Assembly (NCBI RefSeq): GCF_014397005.1
Contig: NZ_JACGWS010000014.1
Coordinates: forward strand, 1 to 64,000
Reading direction: 5' to 3'
Source of the DNA: Kordia aestuariivivens
GTDB taxonomy: Bacteria; Bacteroidota; Bacteroidia; Flavobacteriales; Flavobacteriaceae
DNA length: 64,000 bases
The notes under the pieces are model-generated. The model was given only the letters and a program-made list of their open reading frames with translations. It did not search any database and was not told where the DNA came from. Every line of letters begins with the position of its first letter. Position 1 is the stretch's first letter. Positions 29,589-42,147 of the stretch are shown here, in pieces. Position numbers and translations under genes: made by a program.

Positions 29589-31451
29589 TTATAGGTTTAA
29601 AGAGAATCCAATACGAACGTTAGTTCCTCTTGTAGTAAATCCTATAATCTCTGTATATTCCTCGTTGAATATATTTGAAACGGTTAAAAATCCACTTAAA
29701 CGCTTGCTAAATGTATGATTTACATTCGCGCCAAGTAAGCTGAATGATTCTAAAGTTGCATCTTGAAATGTTGAAAAGTCTGTGTCTAAACGCTCAGAAG
29801 TAAACTGATACGAAATACCTGCATTTGTTTTTGGTGTAAACGCATACGCAACATTCAAATTTGCTTTGTGCTTCGGAATCCGCAATACTTTTACATCTTT
29901 CTTTTCTGTGAAAGTATAATTTGCGTTCACTGTTAAGTTTTTAATTGGCGTTGCTGCAACTTCAAATTCAAAACCGTTTACAGTAAATTCAGCTCCTATA
30001 TTTTGATATTCTCCAGCAAACGTTACAAAATCAGTCACGACATAATCGATGAAATTTTCTTCTGTTCTGTTGAAATAAACGGCACTTACACGTAATTTAT
30101 CAGAGAACTTCACTTCTACTCCACCTTCTAATGTTGTGTTTTCTTCTGGTGATAAATTTGGATTTGCTCCAAAATTTCCAAATAATTGCGATAAAGAAGG
30201 TGCAATAAATGATGTACTATACGAAGCAAATGCTTTTGCATATCCTTTTCCGAATGGCATACGATATGATGGATTCAAGTTGTATGTAAAATGTGTTCCG
30301 TATTCGCTGTGGTTGTTTAAACGCCCACCAGCATTTACATTCAATCCAACATCAGAAACATAAACTACATTTAAGTATGGATCTACAATTGAAGACGATT
30401 GCTCTTCTAAAAACAACGTTTGGTTGTCAATATAATTTAAACCGACAACAGTATAAAACTTATTACTGAAGTTGTATTTATTAAAAACATCCAACGCAAT
30501 TGTTTCACCTTCAAACGTAGATGGAAAGTTTGATTTAAACTCTCTATCAATCTTTGTATAAGCAGCATTTAAAGTTACGCTACCATTTTTATACGTATAC
30601 TTTGGTGCAATTCCAAATCGATATTGTTCGCTTTCACTTGTAAAATCAGCATCTGCTATTGGAAAGGAACTATCAAAATCACTTTTGAATTTATCCATAT
30701 TTCCAAAAACACTTGCTTCAAAAGCATCAGAAAATTTATATCCAATACGCACATTTGTGTTGATACGAGAAAAACGATCGCTTTCTTCACCAATTACAGC
30801 CGACAATCCATCTGTATTTTGATGACCAAAACCAACAACATAACTGATTCCATCCACAGTTCCGTCAATACGAACACTATTTGAAAAATCGTTTACATTA
30901 TAATCTGAATCGTCTTGTGATTGATTCGTCCCAAAAGAACTGTTTACACGCAAAGCAATGGTGTCTTCGGAAGCTTTTTTGGTTGTAATGCTAATCACTG
31001 CGGTTGCTGCGCCACTTCCGTAGAGTGTACTCGAAGCACCTTTTACAATCTCAATCGATTCTATTTGATCCAACGCAATCAAACGTAAATCAAAATCATT
31101 TGCAATAGAAGAAGGATCATTTACCTGAATTCCATCAATCAAAATTAATACTTGACGGTTGTTTCCACCACGTACAAAATAACTCAAGTTTTGTCCTGCG
31201 TTACTTCTACTTCCTAAAATTTCAATACCACTTTTGGTGTTGATGACTTCGGCAACGGTTTTACCTTGATTTTTTTTAATTTCTTCGCTAGAAATTGAAA
31301 TCACTGTTTTTCCAGAGTTTTCACGTTTTAATGCATGACGTGAATCTGAGATGACAACTTCATCAAGTTGTTCATTTTTGTCTTGTTCTTGCGCAAATAC
31401 ACTTGTACACGCCAATAACAAAGCACTAACAGATAGTACTGTTTTTTTCAT
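29589..31451 (-). CDS. btuB: TonB-dependent cobalamin receptor (BtuB-like)
   Basis: This 620-residue outer-membrane receptor has a signal peptide (SVSALLLACTSVFAQ) and a TonB box (LDEVVIS, about residue 30). A plug domain follows at about 45-155, with GKTVAEVINTKSGIEILG, VLILIDGIQVNDPS and IEIVKGASSTLYGSGAATAVISI. A 22-strand barrel ends GFTTRGTNVRIGFSLNL. The length equals E. coli BtuB. Substrate assignment rests on the cobalamin riboswitch in its leader and the divergent ABC importer genes; sequence alone would only say small-metallocofactor receptor. Confidence 0.93.
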   Translation of the reverse strand: MKKTVLSVSALLLACTSVFAQEQDKNEQLDEVVISDSRHALKRENSGKTVISISSEEIKKNQGKTVAEVINTKSGIEILGSRSNAGQNLSYFVRGGNNRQVLILIDGIQVNDPSSIANDFDLRLIALDQIESIEIVKGASSTLYGSGAATAVISITTKKASEDTIALRVNSSFGTNQSQDDSDYNVNDFSNSVRIDGTVDGISYVVGFGHQNTDGLSAVIGEESDRFSRINTNVRIGYKFSDAFEASVFGNMDKFKSDFDSSFPIADADFTSESEQYRFGIAPKYTYKNGSVTLNAAYTKIDREFKSNFPSTFEGETIALDVFNKYNFSNKFYTVVGLNYIDNQTLFLEEQSSSIVDPYLNVVYVSDVGLNVNAGGRLNNHSEYGTHFTYNLNPSYRMPFGKGYAKAFASYSTSFIAPSLSQLFGNFGANPNLSPEENTTLEGGVEVKFSDKLRVSAVYFNRTEENFIDYVVTDFVTFAGEYQNIGAEFTVNGFEFEVAATPIKNLTVNANYTFTEKKDVKVLRIPKHKANLNVAYAFTPKTNAGISYQFTSERLDTDFSTFQDATLESFSLLGANVNHTFSKRLSGFLTVSNIFNEEYTEIIGFTTRGTNVRIGFSLNL

Positions 31452-31527
31452 TTTTTTTCGTTTTATGGGAATAAAGTATGGGTTTCCATACGCAAACTCT
31501 TATCCCGAAAGTTTGACATTAATTGCG

Positions 31528-31743
31528 AAATGTGGCAGGTCTCCTGACTTGCAATTTGTTATATACCTTCCCGAATACTCAGTGGTCATGTAGTTATAAC
31601 AACTCATCTTTGAAATGAGGTACTGAAAAAAGCTTTCAGCACATGCTTACAGTTGCGGGAACAGTCCAAGAATGGAAGCATGTTGCCTCTTCACTTGATT
31701 CCCTTTTAATTCAAACATACTAACGTAGGTTCGAAACCAAAAT
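31528..31743 (-). ncRNA. Cobalamin (B12) riboswitch
   Basis: On the minus strand the leader contains, in order, the hallmarks of the cobalamin aptamer: AAAAGGGAATC near the 5' end, CCCGCAACTGTAAGC, the B12-box-like GACCACTGAG, then GGGAAGG and AAGTCAGGAGACCTGCC at the 3' end. It lies between the predicted transcription start (about 31743) and the receptor ATG at 31451. Binding of adenosylcobalamin would be expected to lower receptor expression. Confidence 0.93.
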
Positions 31744-31749
31744 TCGGCG

Positions 31750-31757
31750 CAAAAATA
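31750..31757 (-). promoter_or_regulatory. -7 box TATTTTTG of the riboswitch-receptor transcript
   Basis: A minus-strand TAnnTTTG match lies just upstream of the riboswitch 5' end. Confidence 0.6.
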
Positions 31758-34240: not shown

Positions 34241-34996
34241 TTGAGCATTGGTTATCAAGAGAAAGGTAACACGAAAGTGATTGCAGAAGCGATTGATTTT
34301 AAAGTTTCAAGAGGAAAATTAGTTGCGTTGGTTGGAGCAAACGGAATTGGAAAGTCTACATTATTGCGAACATTGGCAAAGATTCAACAACCAATTTCTG
34401 GAGAGATTTTATTGCAGAATAAAGCACTTCACGCCTATTCTAATGGTGATTTGGCAAAAGAGATTAGTTTGGTATTAACCGAACAATTACCTTCTAAAAA
34501 TTTGACGGTTATTGAGTTGATCGCGCTCGGTCGTCAACCGTATACCAATTGGATTGGAAACCTTTCGAAGAACGATCACGCGATTGTGGAAAGTGCCTTA
34601 GAGAAGACAAATTTACTCGAATTTAAAGATAGAAAGTGTTATACACTTAGTGACGGACAGTTGCAAAAAGTAATGATTGCACGTGCGTTGGCGCAAGATA
34701 CGTCCATGATTATTCTGGATGAACCGACAACACATTTAGACATGTATCACAAAGCATACGTGTTGAATCTTCTGAAAAGATTAGCGCACGATACACAAAA
34801 AACGATGTTGTTTTCTACCCATGAAATCGATTTGGCGATTCAGTTGTGTGATGAAATGATTGTGATGAATGATGGCAAGGTATTTTCTGGAACACCCTGC
34901 GAATTGATTAGTCAAGGTGTTTTTGAAGCTTTATTTCCAAACGATCTCATTACTTTTGATGCAACTTCGGGAAGTTTTAAAGTGAAGAATACATAA
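34241..34996 (+). CDS. btuD: Cobalamin ABC transporter ATP-binding protein (BtuD-like)
   Basis: This ATPase of at least 251 residues has Walker A GANGIGKSTLL, the Q-loop region VLTEQLPSKNL, signature LSDGQLQKVMIARAL (LSDGQ in place of LSGGQ), Walker B MIILDEPTTHLD and the switch His in LFSTHEIDLAI. It powers the importer with the BtuC-like permease. The only ordinary start codon is the TTG at 34241, yet the in-frame codons before it encode VLRVSQLSIGYQ, the usual first strand of ABC ATPases. Translation therefore probably begins further upstream at a rare start codon, between 34175 and 34205. Confidence 0.9.
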   Translation: MSIGYQEKGNTKVIAEAIDFKVSRGKLVALVGANGIGKSTLLRTLAKIQQPISGEILLQNKALHAYSNGDLAKEISLVLTEQLPSKNLTVIELIALGRQPYTNWIGNLSKNDHAIVESALEKTNLLEFKDRKCYTLSDGQLQKVMIARALAQDTSMIILDEPTTHLDMYHKAYVLNLLKRLAHDTQKTMLFSTHEIDLAIQLCDEMIVMNDGKVFSGTPCELISQGVFEALFPNDLITFDATSGSFKVKNT

Positions 34997-35020
34997 ACTT
35001 TTAGGTTTTACCTAAAAAGA

Positions 35021-35130
35021 AAAAACGCCTTATCAAGCGATAAGACGTTTTATTCTAAACTAACCAACCATGTAATACGACTCTTTTACTTCAAGTAACC
35101 AGCTCTGTGTAACGTCATCATCATACTACA
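35021..35130 (-). ncRNA. Candidate small RNA, copy 1 of 3
   Basis: This minus-strand unit runs from a sigma-54-like element (35141-35160) to a terminator hairpin (35021-35052). The hairpin stem is CTTATC/GATAAG plus AAAACG/CGTTTT around an AAGC loop. The middle contains AGAGCTGGTTACTTGAAG and GAGTCGTATTACAT, shared with copies 2 and 3. Alternatively it could be a mobile repeat or a tiny peptide gene (mini-ORF 35086-35124). Expression is inferred. Confidence 0.55.
35086..35124 (-). CDS. Conserved mini-ORF in small-RNA copy 1
   Basis: A 12-codon frame encodes MMMTLHRAGYLK and ends in TAA. The same frame occurs in copies 2 and 3, with the third differing in five residues but keeping length and stop. 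It starts near the predicted transcript 5' end. It may be a translated micropeptide or chance. Confidence 0.3.
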   Translation of the reverse strand: MMMTLHRAGYLK

Positions 35131-35140
35131 TAAACTATAT

Positions 35141-35160
35141 TTCAACTTCCGTGCCAAAAC
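35141..35160 (-). promoter_or_regulatory. Sigma-54-like -24/-12 element, copy 1
   Basis: TTTTGGCACGGAAGTTGAA on the minus strand has GG and the TTG guanine 12 nt apart, the spacing of sigma-54 promoters. The usual C after TTG is an A. The identification is inferred. Confidence 0.5.
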
Positions 35161-35221
35161 GGAATCTTTTTTCTTAAATTCTACAAGGTTTTTGTTAAAA
35201 TTATAGCTGATTTTTAAAGAG

Positions 35222-35335
35222 AAAAAACACCTTGCAAGCGCAAGGTGTTTTTTTTACTAACTAACCAACCAAAATGTAATACGACTCTTTTACTTCAAGT
35301 AACCAGCTCTGTGTAATGTCATCATCGTGTTACAT
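35222..35335 (-). ncRNA. Candidate small RNA, copy 2 of 3
   Basis: It has the same layout as copy 1. The terminator stem is CACCTTGC/GCAAGGTG with the same AAGC loop and T8. The body is nearly identical to copy 1, including AGAGCTGGTTACTTGAAG. It lies in tandem about 90 nt upstream of copy 1's promoter on the same strand. Confidence 0.55.
35290..35325 (-). CDS. Conserved mini-ORF in small-RNA copy 2
   Basis: An 11-codon frame encodes MMTLHRAGYLK. It differs from the mini-ORF of copy 1 by a synonymous Thr codon (ACA for ACG) and one fewer Met. Translation is not proven. Confidence 0.3.
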   Translation of the reverse strand: MMTLHRAGYLK

Positions 35336-35345
35336 TAAACTATAT

Positions 35346-35363
35346 GTCAATTTCCGTGCCAAA
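35346..35363 (-). promoter_or_regulatory. Sigma-54-like -24/-12 element, copy 2
   Basis: TTTGGCACGGAAATTGAC on the minus strand has the same 12-nt spacing between GG and the TTG guanine as copies 1 and 3. Confidence 0.5.
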
Positions 35364-35573
35364 ACGATTTTGAAATAGAAAAATAGTTGTTTTTATTTTG
35401 AGCAGCGACCAACTAATGCTAGTTGTTCCTTAAAGATTCTTACCAAAAAATATCAACGACATTTTTTAAAGAAGAAATTACTGTGTTTAATTTTCATATT
35501 GAACTCACGCTAAATAATATCAGCTTTTTGTTAAGAATGAAAAGTAGTTTCTCAGTAAAAAGCTTCATAAAAC

Positions 35574-35604
35574 AAAAAGGTCGGAAGAAAAACTCTCCCG
35601 ACCT
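35574..35604 (-). terminator. Rho-independent terminator of the peptide gene
   Basis: AGGTCGG (35578-35584) and CCGACCT (35598-35604) pair. On the minus strand the stem is followed by TTTTTG. It lies about 35 nt past the peptide stop. The rest of 35365-35573 shows no supported feature. Confidence 0.8.
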
Positions 35605-35639
35605 AGAATTAGCCGCAATTTGTGTTTTTAGTTGTTGTT

Positions 35640-35852
35640 CTAATTTGGGCAATAATATGAATCGCAACCTCCAAATCTAGAATCACACCAATTTACTTTG
35701 GTATCATTACAACCTGGTTTATTCTGTGTTAATGGCACTTCTACTGGCTTACACGATAAATAACCAGAAACTGCTCCTCCTTTTAATACTTCGTGTAAAT
35801 TACTAATGGTTTTTCTAGTAAGTGTCAATGATTTTAAATTCTTTTTTTTCAT
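35640..35852 (-). CDS. GG-leader peptide precursor (class I lanthipeptide-like)
   Basis: This 70-residue peptide has the leader KKKNLKSLTLTRKTISNLHEV and a double glycine in LKGG (residues about 24-25). The core is rich in Cys, Ser and Thr (SGYLSCKPVEV, then four more Cys up to DSYYCPN). The leader is nearly the same as that of the peptide at 9645-9839. I start at the ATG at 35852, as the frame upstream lacks the conserved start. It lies between two candidate small RNAs and the membrane LytTR regulator gene on the same strand. No modifying enzyme is nearby. Confidence 0.7.
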   Translation of the reverse strand: MKKKNLKSLTLTRKTISNLHEVLKGGAVSGYLSCKPVEVPLTQNKPGCNDTKVNWCDSRFGGCDSYYCPN

Positions 35853-36013
35853 AATGTTTATATTTTTAGTTAATAATTGATATTTCAAATGTATATGCTA
35901 CAAAGAAATAATTCATTGATTTTGTAGCGTTTGTGCTGGTTTACCCTATAAATAGTGACGGTCAAAAAATGGCGTGTGACGAAATAGAAGGTTTTAGGGA
36001 TGAAATTATTTTT

Positions 36014-38608
36014 TTAAAAAATTAAATTGTTCAGTTCGGCTGTATACGAATTACTCACTGGCAATTTTTCATCATTTATAATGACTTCCTTGCTGTTTTT
36101 TTCGGCTACTTTGTCTATTCGGATAATGTATGAACGGTGAATTCTTAAGTACTCTAAAGGATCTGGTGTACGATTTATAAATTCTCCTATTTTAGTCCGC
36201 ACGATGTAATTTTTACTTTCTGTTATTATTTCGATGTAGTTTCCAGAAGATTTCACATAGAGTATTGTATTCGCTTTGATTCTAATTTCTTTGCCAGCAT
36301 CTTTGAATGAAAAGTACTTTTCTTTGCGCTTGATCTTTTTTATGAGTAATCGCAATAATTCTCTAATGATATGTCTGTTGTACGACAATATTCTATATTT
36401 AAAAAAAACATATATGAGTAGCAACGCAGATAGTATTCCTGAAATTACAAACCAAGCTTGTTTCCAAAATGGTGCTTTTATAGAAATAGGAATTTCTATA
36501 AATTGTAAATTTTCAGCTTTTTCGGAAGTAGTTGCGGCAACTTTTAGTGTATAATCGCCATAAGGTAACGCTGGATACGGTATTTGACGGTTTTTTGTAA
36601 AATACCATTTATCATCCAATCCTTCGAGCTTGTATTTATAGAGTAATTCGCCCGATTCTTTAAAAGAAATGCCTTCTACCAAAAATTCTACTCTGTTTTC
36701 TTTATGAGAAAGATTTTCTAGTTTTTCCATACAAACGCGAACGTCATTTACATAAGACGCTTTGATTTGAAGATGATAGGAATTTGTTTCTTCTTTTTTA
36801 TCAAATACACTTTTCGGAGCGTATATCAATCCTTTTTGTGAAGCAATCCAAACCGTATCATTAATCACTTCCACATCACTTATTCCGTCATTTAGCGAAC
36901 CACCAGAGCTTTTTAATCCTGTAATTTTATAACTGCCGTCTGCCAAAAATTTTATTTTATTCAATCCAGAATTTGTACAAACCCACAGTTCGTTTTTATT
37001 TTCAATATACAGTTCATTGATAATATCGCTCGACAATCCGTCTTGCTTTGTAATCGTACTAATTTCGGCTGTATCCGCGTTATAAATAATAATTCCAGCA
37101 CCTAAGGTTCCAAAATAAATTTCATCTTTTCTTTCATTAAAATCAACATCATCTATTCTATTTTTAAATATTGGAGCCAATGTATCTAAAGAAGTTATTT
37201 CATCATTTTTTAAAATATAAGCTCCGGAAGGTGTTCCTAAATAAATTTCGCCATTTCTAATACAAGCATCATGAATTCTCATGGCAGTGTTAACACTTTT
37301 CACCGAATCGTTTTTAATAGCTGCCAAGTGTTTTAGTTGCGATATAATAATGCCCTCTTTTGTAGGCTCAGATAGTTTTAATGAGTAAAATTTACACAAG
37401 GAATCTCTAATTTCTTCTTTGTTATTCTGTTTATTTTTCTTGTAAAATGTTGCGCCAGAATACACATATAATTCGTTGTGAAGACTATCAAATTCTACAA
37501 AAGCTTTTTCATAACTTTTAGAGCTATATTCAACATACGATTTTTTAGTTCTAGTAAGTACTCTTTCTACATCTCCGTTATCATACCCAATATATAGTTC
37601 ATTTGCTGAATTTTTTGTCAATGAATTTATGGGAGCATTAATCAGGTTTTTAAAAACTCTTATTTTAGGATCTTTGCTATAAAAAACTCCTGAATTTAAT
37701 GTTGAAAACCAATAACCACCTTCGTTATCAATTAAAAAATCTGTAACGGATTTATTTGCTAAAAACCTTTCTACTATATTTCCTTTGAGATCTACAATGG
37801 CTGCACCTCCAAAATGATACCCTACAAAAAAATGAGTTGCATCAATTACTTTTAACATAATTGGCATTTTTGAATCATCAAGCTTTGCTATTACTTCTCC
37901 TTTAGCATTCGCTACAAACACACTATTCTTGTAGCTGTAAACAACATGATTTCTATCTGGTAAGACAATCGGGTAATTATTAGTATCAAATATTGTTTGA
38001 AATTCTAAGGAATTAGGAGTAATCTTTCTACTTTCATTTGCGTAATAAGCAAAATAAAAATCATTTTCACCTAACACTAAATAAACTACTGGAGACTCTT
38101 TATCCTTATTCGCTTCGGGTGTTTCTAAAACGTTTCCTTCTTTAGAAATAACTAATTTACCAATGGTTTTATCACTACTAAGATGTAAATTATCTTGATC
38201 GTCAATATATAAACTGGTAATGTGTTGGATATCTTGAAACTGTTGTTCATGTTCAAGGATGTGATTATAACTATAAGAGATGAATCCATTAAAATTTTCA
38301 TTAAAATAGAATAACTTACTATCTAATGTTGCACAATAGATATCGCCATTTTTTTGTGGATAAAAATCTAAAACAACATTATTCAACACGCCATCTTGAA
38401 CGCCATATTTTTTGAATTCATATCCATTGTAACTTGCCAAACCTCTATCGGTTGCATACCAAATAACTCCGTTACTCGCTTGGTACATATCGTACACTTG
38501 CAAACTAGGAAGTCCATCATTAATTCCAAATTCTTTAAATATAGTATTCTGAGAAACTAAAAATTGGCTGCATAACAGCAAAGCAAAAAGAACAGTTTTT
38601 TGAATCAT
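36014..38608 (-). CDS. Membrane-bound LytTR transcription regulator with propeller sensor
   Basis: The 864-residue protein has a signal peptide (FALLLCSQFLVSQ) and a long periplasmic two-component-regulator propeller region (about 20-600, blades such as GLPSLQVYDMYQASNGVIWYAT and GLSSDIINELYIENKNELWVCTNSGLNKI). A Y_Y_Y domain follows (LLYKYKLEGLDDKWYF to GDYTLKVAATTSEK), then one membrane span (FVISGILSALLLIYVFFKYR, about 725) and a cytoplasmic LytTR DNA-binding domain (ILYVKSSGNYIEIITESKNYIVRTKI, YLRIHRSYIIRI). No kinase or receiver is present, so it should act as a one-component sensor at the membrane. It lies upstream of the 35640 peptide gene on the same strand. Confidence 0.9.
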   Translation of the reverse strand: MIQKTVLFALLLCSQFLVSQNTIFKEFGINDGLPSLQVYDMYQASNGVIWYATDRGLASYNGYEFKKYGVQDGVLNNVVLDFYPQKNGDIYCATLDSKLFYFNENFNGFISYSYNHILEHEQQFQDIQHITSLYIDDQDNLHLSSDKTIGKLVISKEGNVLETPEANKDKESPVVYLVLGENDFYFAYYANESRKITPNSLEFQTIFDTNNYPIVLPDRNHVVYSYKNSVFVANAKGEVIAKLDDSKMPIMLKVIDATHFFVGYHFGGAAIVDLKGNIVERFLANKSVTDFLIDNEGGYWFSTLNSGVFYSKDPKIRVFKNLINAPINSLTKNSANELYIGYDNGDVERVLTRTKKSYVEYSSKSYEKAFVEFDSLHNELYVYSGATFYKKNKQNNKEEIRDSLCKFYSLKLSEPTKEGIIISQLKHLAAIKNDSVKSVNTAMRIHDACIRNGEIYLGTPSGAYILKNDEITSLDTLAPIFKNRIDDVDFNERKDEIYFGTLGAGIIIYNADTAEISTITKQDGLSSDIINELYIENKNELWVCTNSGLNKIKFLADGSYKITGLKSSGGSLNDGISDVEVINDTVWIASQKGLIYAPKSVFDKKEETNSYHLQIKASYVNDVRVCMEKLENLSHKENRVEFLVEGISFKESGELLYKYKLEGLDDKWYFTKNRQIPYPALPYGDYTLKVAATTSEKAENLQFIEIPISIKAPFWKQAWFVISGILSALLLIYVFFKYRILSYNRHIIRELLRLLIKKIKRKEKYFSFKDAGKEIRIKANTILYVKSSGNYIEIITESKNYIVRTKIGEFINRTPDPLEYLRIHRSYIIRIDKVAEKNSKEVIINDEKLPVSNSYTAELNNLIF

Positions 38609-38997
38609 TACAGGAGTGATTTTTTAAAAATTATAATACTCAACTAAAAGAGTACTATTGGTGGTTTATAAAAAACTGGGGGCTTCTAATTACTCAGATG
38701 CAAATTGCGACGAGAAAATAGAAGGATTTGTTTTTCATACTAAATGTTAATGTTACATCAAACCTAAAGTAAAAAGTAGGGAGAACAAACAGTTATAGCT
38801 GATGTTTTATAAAAGATCATTACAGATAATCATTAAAAAAATACTGATAATCAAACAGTTATAAAATTCATAAAGAACAAAAAACTTAAAATATCATATT
38901 TTTGAAAAACTAAAAGTTGACTGAATATCAACAACGGAAAAGAATGATTTTTGAATTATATAAAGGAATTGATTACTAAAAATCATCAAAATGTATT
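38609..38997. other. AT-rich gap with no supported gene
   Basis: No conserved ORF is seen. The string AAACAGTTATA occurs twice, about 63 nt apart, and a TATTTTTG box (near 38897) points right without a clear gene. A small-RNA copy follows at 39002. Confidence 0.4.
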
Positions 38998-39001
38998 GCA
39001 T

Positions 39002-39115
39002 AAAAAACACTTCACAAGCGTGAAGTGTTTTTTAAACTAACTAACCAACTAAAATGTAATGCGACTCTCTTTAATTCGAGTAACCAGCTCTGTCTAATGT
39101 CCTCACCGCGTTACA
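39002..39115 (-). ncRNA. Candidate small RNA, copy 3 of 3
   Basis: It has the same order as copies 1 and 2 but is more diverged. The terminator stem is CACTTCAC/GTGAAGTG around the same AAGC loop, with T6. Against copies 1 and 2 the stem bases changed on both arms, which supports a real RNA hairpin. AGAGCTGGTTACT is kept. Confidence 0.55.
39071..39106 (-). CDS. Conserved mini-ORF in small-RNA copy 3
   Basis: An 11-codon frame starts with GTG, reads RTLDRAGYSN after it, and ends in TAA. It lines up codon by codon with MMTLHRAGYLK of copy 2. Translation is not proven. Confidence 0.25.
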   Translation of the reverse strand: MRTLDRAGYSN

Positions 39116-39125
39116 ATTTATCATA

Positions 39126-39143
39126 TCCAACTTCCGTGCCAAA
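39126..39143 (-). promoter_or_regulatory. Sigma-54-like -24/-12 element, copy 3
   Basis: TTTGGCACGGAAGTTGGA on the minus strand has the same 12-nt spacing. About 25 nt further upstream lies an inverted repeat TTGAATT-TT-AATTCAA (39167-39182) of unknown role. Confidence 0.5.
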
Positions 39144-39209
39144 AATAAATTTATATGTTTTTTTATTTGAATTTTAATTCAATACATTTAATGTTTAATA
39201 CTTAAGTTA

Positions 39210-39710
39210 TTGAAAACAATATTAGAAACCGAACGTTTGCGCTTGCGCGAATTCAAATTGAGTGATGCTGATTTTATATTGCAATTGGTAAACACACCAT
39301 TGTGGATTCAATTTATTGGCAATAAAAATATTCGAACGCATGGAGTTGCTGAGGAATATATTCAAAACAATCTGCAAAAAAGTTATAAGAAAAATGGTTT
39401 TGGTTTGTGGTTGATGGAACTCAAAGAAACTTCCAAATCCATTGGCATGTGCGGTTTAGTCAACAGAGAATCACTCGACGATGTAGATATTGGTTTTGCC
39501 TTATTGCCAAGCTACGAACGGAATGGATATACGTTTGAAGCTGCAAAAGCAACACTCAACTATGCCAAAGAAACACTAAACATTGACAAGATTGTTGCCA
39601 TTACCGATCCAAAAAATGTAGCTTCTATTGGATTGCTGAACAAAATTGGATTACAATTTGAAAAAGAAGTACACTTATCAGAAGATGATGTTGTATTATT
39701 GTTTTCCTAA
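39210..39710 (+). CDS. GNAT family N-acetyltransferase (RimJ/RimL-like)
   Basis: This 166-residue protein starts MKTILETERLRLREFKLSDADF, the usual opening of RimJ/RimL-type acetyltransferases. It has IGMCGLVNRESLDDVDIGFALLPSYERNGYTFEAAKA, where the acetyl-CoA loop is expected, and ends with NVASIGLLNKIGLQFEKEV. The start codon is TTG; no ATG gives this N-terminus. The acceptor is unknown. It overlooks the divergent small-RNA copy 3. Confidence 0.92.
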   Translation: MKTILETERLRLREFKLSDADFILQLVNTPLWIQFIGNKNIRTHGVAEEYIQNNLQKSYKKNGFGLWLMELKETSKSIGMCGLVNRESLDDVDIGFALLPSYERNGYTFEAAKATLNYAKETLNIDKIVAITDPKNVASIGLLNKIGLQFEKEVHLSEDDVVLLFS

Positions 39711-41827: not shown

Positions 41828-42147
41828 TATTCAGTCTCAGTTTTCAGTTTTAAAAACGTCTAACCTTCTAATAATCCAAGAAGCCTACTAATCGTCATTT
41901 CGAGTGATTTTTGAAATGAAATGAAGAAAATTGTATCTGGAAATAGTTGTTTCTCATTACTCAATACTAAGATCTCAATACTATAAAAAAACATCCGTTT
42001 TACTAACACATATTATCTAATTTACGTTTCCTTCGTTTTTTATTCTACAATTTCAGTGATAGCTTGCAGTAGTAATCAATACTTCTTGATTGCTAAGGCG
42101 AAGCCGAAAACCTTTCTCAGAGTAGGCATTTTTTAAACTGTTTAATC
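41828..42147. other. Intergenic gap with low-complexity repeats and a possible leader
   Basis: The left part holds CTCAATACTAA-type strings and a segment related to one at about 34090. The right part, before the peptide gene, has a small hairpin AATCAA/TTGATT (42074-42091) and GGCGAAGCC (42097-42105), perhaps part of the peptide mRNA leader. No ORF is supported. Confidence 0.4.

Follow-up and report, generated by a model that had tools for sequence, protein, structure and literature searches.

Predicted small RNA genes with sigma-54-type boxes in Flavobacteriaceae and a 3′ module common to them and to mRNAs

The Qrr sRNAs of Vibrio are sigma-54-driven, are encoded by several gene copies and act in quorum sensing in an Hfq-dependent manner. 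The R1 region of GcvB, an Hfq-dependent enterobacterial sRNA, is G/U-rich and unstructured and pairs with C/A-rich start regions, and CpxQ of E. coli is Hfq-bound. The units described here resemble Qrr in being multicopy sRNA genes with a sigma-54 promoter, which is predicted in the units, and differ from it in that no Rfam match was obtained for them. Nearer relatives of the host have also been studied. FopS of Bacteroides was induced by bile salts and was deposited in Rfam, according to the available part of PMC11697453. In Flavobacterium psychrophilum, the accessible sections of PMC9723704 list GroESL, Lon, DnaK, GrpE-DnaJ, HtpG, ClpB, Skp, lipoproteins and the sRNA Rfp36 behind sigma-54 (SM4) promoters with -24/-12 elements, a list that fits a heat/envelope-stress regulon. 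Rfp36, which co-clusters with the gliding operon and exported proteins, is like our units in being an sRNA behind such a promoter, and Rfp18 of the same organism is like them in being a conserved structured sRNA (PMC9723704, same sections); homology was established for neither.

The three units and their relatives

The DNA analysed was a 64,000 nt stretch of Kordia aestuariivivens (NZ_JACGWS010000014.1, positions 1 to 64,000), hereafter the window. A sequence-only reading had placed three minus-strand units at 35021-35158, 35222-35364 and 39002-39145, and all three were found there with the layout it described (Table 1). The letters TTTTGGCACGGAA were the same in all three units, with TTG following at fixed spacing; AGAGCTGGTTACT, GTCG and ATTACAT were kept, and a terminator hairpin stood at the end of each. 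The changes on both arms of the terminator stems and the base after TTG (A, A and G in units 1, 2 and 3) were also as that reading gave them. It had further assigned all three hairpins the loop AAGC; the loop is indeed common to them, but AAGC is its plus-strand spelling and the loop of the RNA is GCUU. The most conserved feature, which it had not stressed, was TTTGGTTGGTTAGT ahead of the terminator, with one substitution in unit 3 and the form TGGTTGGTTAGT in unit 1.

Table 1. Features of the window and two further units of the same genome
Feature	Position	Strand	Remark
Unit 1, sigma-54-type box and sRNA gene	35018..35159	-	predicted RNA ~35132 down to 35018
Unit 1, -24/-12 box TTTGGCACGGAAGTTG	35143..35158	-	
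Unit 1, motif TGGTTGGTTAGT	35059..35070	-	unpaired in fold
Unit 1, terminator hairpin	35020..35053	-	RNA loop GCUU
Unit 2, sigma-54-type box and sRNA gene	35219..35364	-	predicted RNA ~35337 down to 35219
Unit 2, -24/-12 box TTTGGCACGGAAATTG	35348..35363	-	
Unit 2, motif TTTGGTTGGTTAGT	35260..35273	-	unpaired in fold
Unit 2, terminator hairpin	35222..35253	-	
Unit 3, sigma-54-type box and sRNA gene	38999..39144	-	predicted RNA ~39117 down to 38999
Unit 3, -24/-12 box TTTGGCACGGAAGTTG	39128..39143	-	
Unit 3, motif TTTAGTTGGTTAGT	39040..39053	-	one substitution; unpaired in fold
Unit 3, terminator hairpin	39002..39033	-	
Regulator-propeller, Y_Y_Y and LytTR protein gene	36014..38608	-	between units 2 and 3
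Stand-alone unit, same genome	C14:58223-58357		R2 105.3 bits
Diverged candidate unit, same genome	C1:608317		carries TTTGGATTGGTTAGT and terminator

A search of the 5.46-Mb genome with unit 2 retrieved the other two units at E values of 3.5e-38 and 2.8e-34, so their likeness is not due to chance. The same query also found a diverged copy on contig C14 (E 3e-5). With this copy and the diverged candidate on contig C1, the claim of a three-copy family did not hold. The gene between units 2 and 3 has relatives on two named Kordia contigs, each with four units in the same neighbourhood.

A covariance model (R1) built from the three window units found relatives in Flavobacteriaceae. A second model (R2) was built from 42 copies; the corresponding alignment (A3) took in 42 of 48 unit copies, without five in tandem and one that lacked a promoter; the plus-strand match was likewise omitted. 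Units 2 and 3 scored 128.9 and 116.5 bits with R2. Matches of at least 50 bits were present in 89 of 199 Flavobacteriaceae genomes and, among the matches listed, which went down to 40.9 bits, in at least 111 of the 199 at 40.9 bits or more; some of those between about 41 and 52 bits were mRNA 3′ UTRs and not stand-alone genes. The best score outside the Flavobacteriaceae, in a 296-genome sample of the phylum, was 37.3 bits, which was taken as the noise ceiling, and one sampled genus of the Flavobacteriaceae (g128) came near it with a best score of 39.5 bits. The RNA family is thus found in about half of the 199 Flavobacteriaceae genomes and does not rise above noise in the sampled rest of the phylum. 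In seven genomes, between two and four copies scored 60 bits or more.

Comparison of the units with Rfam 15, with Flavo-1, Qrr and FopS included as far as it contains them, gave no family at its cut-off. In the whole window only Cobalamin and DUF805b exceeded their gathering cut-offs, both away from the units, and a scan of 34900-39300 at E<=5 returned nine matches, all under cut-off; the one with the lowest E value was Atu_C9 (E 0.0011, plus strand, 24.9 of 40 bits). At 19 loci from relatives, Cobalamin alone was over cut-off in Rfam 15. The RNA family was not met in the literature searched, and a search for literature containing the sequence letters gave, among the matches listed, no title on a flavobacterial RNA. 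The two window matches were a Cobalamin riboswitch (RF00174, 82.7 bits) at 31517-31756 (-), which by eye precedes a TonB-receptor-like gene (29589-31451), and a DUF805b RNA (RF02914, 38.2 bits, gathering 35.6) at 42094-42128 (+). A short Cys-rich ORF without a Pfam or NCBIfam match adjoins unit 2 (35640-35888); judged by eye, we take it to resemble a lanthipeptide-type precursor.

At 33 of 40 loci a gene for SPFH (PF01145) or DUF819 (PF05684) was found nearby, oriented opposite to the sRNA gene. The C14 copy of the Kordia genome, on another contig than the window, is beside an SPFH gene. As most relatives have their copy in this place, those of the window are best read as expansions that arose in Kordia. 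In some further genera (L386, L388, L389 and L391) the unit was directly upstream of the gene for an exported S/R-rich protein, each with its own box, and in L390 and L392 the module closed an upstream gene.

That the units are repeated DNA or a mobile element and not RNA genes might be suggested by the tandem copies and by a loose plus-strand match of 34.1 bits at 35135-35261. This is disfavoured and very improbable, as the promoter-to-terminator order is conserved, the same divergent neighbours recur at the 33 of 40 loci, the stems covary and there was no phage match.

RNA structure and the sigma-54-type box

The predicted RNAs of the window units are 115-119 nt long and consist of a 5′ hairpin, then an unpaired UUUGGUUGGUUAGU and then an intrinsic terminator. 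The fold of unit 1 had a z-score of -3.86 and none of 200 shuffles was equally stable; for units 2 and 3 the z-scores were -2.67 and -2.30, with 3 and 6 of 200 shuffles equally stable, and the centroid fold of unit 3 was without the 5′ hairpin. The length of this hairpin was very variable, the distance from the predicted start to the motif being 22 to 74 nt. The motif UUUGGUUGGUUAGU is a G/U-rich 14-mer that was exact in 47 of 56 aligned copies, and it was unpaired in the three window folds and in many, though not all, single-sequence folds.

In the R2-fitted alignment 93.0% of cells were paired and 18 of 19 pairs were changed on both sides; none of 500 shuffles scored as high, and slid controls were 44-62% paired. 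The 93.0% figure rests on an alignment fitted to the model itself. For the terminator alone, 12 of 12 pairs had changes on both sides and 99.1% of cells were paired; it thereby satisfies the yardstick for an intrinsically terminated sRNA gene, a conserved hairpin with a U-run and compensatory changes. RNAalifold on a MAFFT alignment recovered the terminator only (10 of 12 pairs changed on both sides), so that support for the 5′ hairpin comes from the fitted alignment and the single folds. A reduced form was seen at one locus (L393): about 10 nt separate TTG from the motif there, which puts the predicted start at the motif (by eye). From this single arrangement, motif and terminator together look like the core of the RNA.

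A TGG[C/T]A-N6-TTG box with constant spacing, mostly TTTGGCAC, preceded 55 of 56 aligned family copies, and the predicted start lies about 12 nt past it, at the 5′ arm of the hairpin. The yardstick for sigma-54 was -24/-12 elements of the TGGCAC-N5-TTGC(A/T) type at fixed spacing, which the family meets. The base at -12 was A in 19, T in 17, C in 12 and G in seven of the 55 members; because it varies so freely, the missing C at -12 in the window is no objection to sigma-54.

These data bear on the earlier proposal that the units are small RNAs with sigma-54-like promoters and that paired stem changes reflect a selected RNA structure. Both parts gained support from comparison: the model built from the three copies led to further homologues in Flavobacteriaceae in which the stems also covary, and the box stood before nearly all family copies and before unrelated module-bearing genes as well. 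Two outcomes that would have counted against the proposal, an absence of homologues with covarying stems and homologues lacking the TGGCAC element, were looked for and not met (18 of 19 pairs doubly changed; box in 55 of 56 copies). The sigma-54 inference is further backed by a flavobacterial transcriptome, the available part of which places start sites at -24/-12 promoters of comparable genes and of an sRNA (PMC9723704).

RpoN (PF04552) was encoded in 199 of 199 Flavobacteriaceae genomes, that of K. aestuariivivens included, and its presence was rejected as a correlate of the RNA family because a protein universal in the sample is uninformative. No common upstream activator site was seen when the regions upstream of the loci were inspected by eye. 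A palindrome of the ATGATATCAT type, found upstream in many loci, adjoins the divergent SPFH gene, and none was seen at the DUF819-type loci. Upstream of an OmpH/Skp-like gene of the Kordia genome stands TTTTGGCACGATATTTTC, the -12 part of which is imperfect (by eye).

The 3′ module on mRNAs

In 35 genomes chosen because they scored high with R2, the exact 14-mer UUUGGUUGGUUAGU occurred at 85 sites and the reversed pattern at 10. Thirty-nine of these sites were sRNA copies and 46 lay outside sRNAs, 33 of the latter at an mRNA end ahead of a terminator (by eye). The 33 ends belonged to an exported S/R-rich protein of ~400 aa (20; two tested, no Pfam match), a lipoprotein (three; one tested, no Pfam match), ClpB (three, in three genomes), short exported proteins (two, one with a sub-cut-off DUF4890 match), an EF-hand protein (one) and a small ORF with a conserved stretch behind it (four). 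The remaining 13 sites fitted no mRNA-end class; two lay within ORFs, eight were other sites, and three were in target orientation directly upstream of an ORF (by eye). Loci of four genera (L156, L164, L168 and L196) had a conserved CTGTCCCCAATCGAG stretch and then the motif with a GCCCG..CGGGC terminator, the stretch coming after a small ORF (~40 aa in L164, by eye).

The S/R-rich protein genes (20 of 20) and lipoprotein genes (three of three), all of which had been selected by the module, also had the box ahead of their start, mostly around -50. In the three clpB genes with the 3′ motif, TGGTA-N6-TTG was found upstream at the same spacing (3/3). Relatives of two families were then fetched by protein with the motif disregarded, and the 30 best loci per family were taken; these are the best-scoring relatives only, and distant ones are under-sampled. 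Pooled, the box was present at 56 of 56 readable loci (of 60) and the 3′ module at 46 of 56. For the lipoprotein, which is present in 128 of 199 Flavobacteriaceae genomes, 28 of 30 loci (L326-L355) were readable, L331 and L340 not being parsed; the box was found at 28 of 28 and the module (two mismatches at most, within 90 nt of the stop) at 22 of 28, compared with a mean of 0.26 for permuted motifs, the best of 500 reaching 20. The S/R-rich protein was present in 79 of 100 genomes and 28 of its 30 loci were readable (L369 and L374 were not parsed); here the box was found at 28 of 28 and the module at 24 of 28, 22 of them exact, and permuted motifs gave a mean of 0.37 and a best of 23, with none of 500 as high. 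The lipoprotein of L182 had no Pfam or NCBIfam match; L182 and L220 were also in the lipoprotein set with a sigma-54-type box.

In the genome of K. aestuariivivens the lipoprotein gene has the box and a TTTGGTTGGTTATTTAG 3′ UTR with a terminator, and the S/R-rich gene has the box, a degenerate 3′ end and no module. As only one of the five box-led genes examined in this genome, that for the lipoprotein, carries the module, it characterises only part of the regulon. The module occurred without the box in two genes for short exported proteins and in one for an EF-hand protein. An sRNA-like unit of the Kordia genome (L006, C43:25569-25729; R2 34.3 bits) has AGTTTTGGTTGGTTAAT and a terminator behind an apparently sigma-A-type TATATTTG box, so the link between module and sigma-54 is not a strict one. 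Judged from sequence, the same 14-mer and terminator also make up the putative 3′ UTR of mRNAs for envelope and stress proteins whose genes have the same box. This link between the RNA family and mRNA 3′ UTRs goes beyond the sequence-only reading, which missed it.

The module might be no more than a cis-acting 3′-end element that controls termination or decay of sigma-54 transcripts, with the stand-alone RNAs as by-products, and it does adjoin the terminator in the sRNAs aligned and in the majority of mRNA cases, which agrees with this. We consider this unlikely: stand-alone units are kept over many genera, some of them in tandem, with a covarying 5′ hairpin, and generic genes lack the element, as no 8-mer of it lay 100 nt or less from any of the 342 CDS ends sampled in the Kordia genome.

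Proposed explanation and comparison with known systems

Our main reading, to which we assign a probability of roughly one half, is a sigma-54 stress regulon with a post-transcriptional arm composed of stand-alone and mRNA-borne 3′ modules, similar to CpxQ and FopS. The three units would be paralogous sRNA genes transcribed by sigma-54 RNA polymerase, as inferred from the box, and the G/U-rich UUUGGUUGGUUAGU would be the working part, ending both stand-alone sRNAs and envelope/stress mRNAs. Upon stress both kinds of transcript would appear; UUUGGUUGGUUAGU would then pair with C/A-rich (ACUAACCAACCAAA-like) translation start regions of other mRNAs and lower their translation, and mRNA-borne modules would act as 3′-UTR-derived sRNAs, as CpxQ does from cpxP. 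The whole would be the post-transcriptional arm of the flavobacterial sigma-54 envelope/heat-stress response. The family, the box, the structure with its paired changes, the shared 3′ module and its co-occurrence with the box rest on sequence. Transcription, stress induction, trans action and pairing are inferred only; there are no transcript data, and no target or RNA-binding protein has been shown.

The tests for pairing targets did not firmly support pairing. Exact 10-mer complements of the motif numbered 14 in the Kordia genome (sRNA copies included) against 19 for the reversed pattern, and samples of genomes G171 and G000 showed no significant excess of complementary 7-9-mers at start codons. 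Strong duplexes numbered 32 in G171 against a shuffled mean of 16.2, below the highest of 30 shuffles (36), and 32 in G000 against 24.9. In two genomes a pairing preference for exported-protein mRNAs was extreme, with 3 of 150 shuffles in each, and it failed in three more (62, 46 and 36 of 150 shuffles); with the genomes combined, 6 of 150 shuffles were as extreme. As the three replicate genomes lacked it, this preference was not counted as support. For TonB-receptor (susC-type) mRNAs 14 of 150 shuffles were as extreme, with only five genes. Hfq (PF17209) had no match in 11 genomes of the genus and was over cut-off in 0 of 21 genomes. Separately, G171 had 39 forward and 10 reverse matches to ACTAACCAACCAA with at most one mismatch (control 5 and 6), a strand bias that is unexplained.

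These results leave room for another account, in which the motif is the site of an RNA-binding protein and the stand-alone sRNAs titrate this protein or share it with motif-bearing sigma-54 mRNAs. CsrB acts in this way on CsrA. It is a serious rival because the motif runs in the same sense in both sRNAs and mRNAs and is not complementary between them; a GGUU unit is repeated in the motif, 14 nt are exact in 47 of 56 rows and the pairing-target tests gave no support. An RRM protein binds single-stranded regions of Bacteroides sRNAs, as stated in the available part of PMC11697453. No such protein was identified here, however, and a site for titration need not stand directly before the terminator at an RNA end, as the motif does in the aligned sRNAs and in most of the mRNA cases. 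We regard this account as possible without favouring it.

Returning to the sigma-54 regulon with its post-transcriptional arm, a broader form of the proposal is that one common 3′ module (UUUGGUUGGUUAGU and terminator) tags many coding and non-coding sigma-54 transcripts in Flavobacteriaceae as an Hfq-independent post-transcriptional network; this we hold tentatively, at somewhat less than even odds. If it is true, stand-alone sRNA genes and mRNA 3′ UTRs share a scattered RNA tag that acts as one network, and a motif common to sRNAs and to the 3′ UTRs of same-box genes would be unusual in its breadth. The Flavobacteriaceae are major marine and soil bacteria. Now that the RNA family, the class of its promoter, a nearly invariant core and the partner protein genes have been named, sigma-54 stress control without a detected Hfq becomes testable.

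The likeness to GcvB R1 is confined to the G/U-rich unstructured stretch, and no homology is claimed. FopS is closer: as far as the available part of PMC11697453 describes it, FopS, like the units, comprises multicopy paralogous Bacteroidota sRNAs with an unpaired conserved stretch before the terminator, and one member, like the module, derives from an mRNA 3′ end. It differs in having housekeeping-sigma-type promoters and the conserved stretch at the 5′ end, in binding RbpB and in repressing a susC mRNA (PMC11697453, same part). CpxQ, in the accessible portion of PMC4817254, is similar to the module in that it is an sRNA out of the 3′ UTR of an envelope-stress mRNA (cpxP), and it differs in being Cpx-driven. 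Unlike CpxQ, the module described here, for which no Hfq was detected, is also carried by stand-alone sigma-54-box genes and by several mRNAs.
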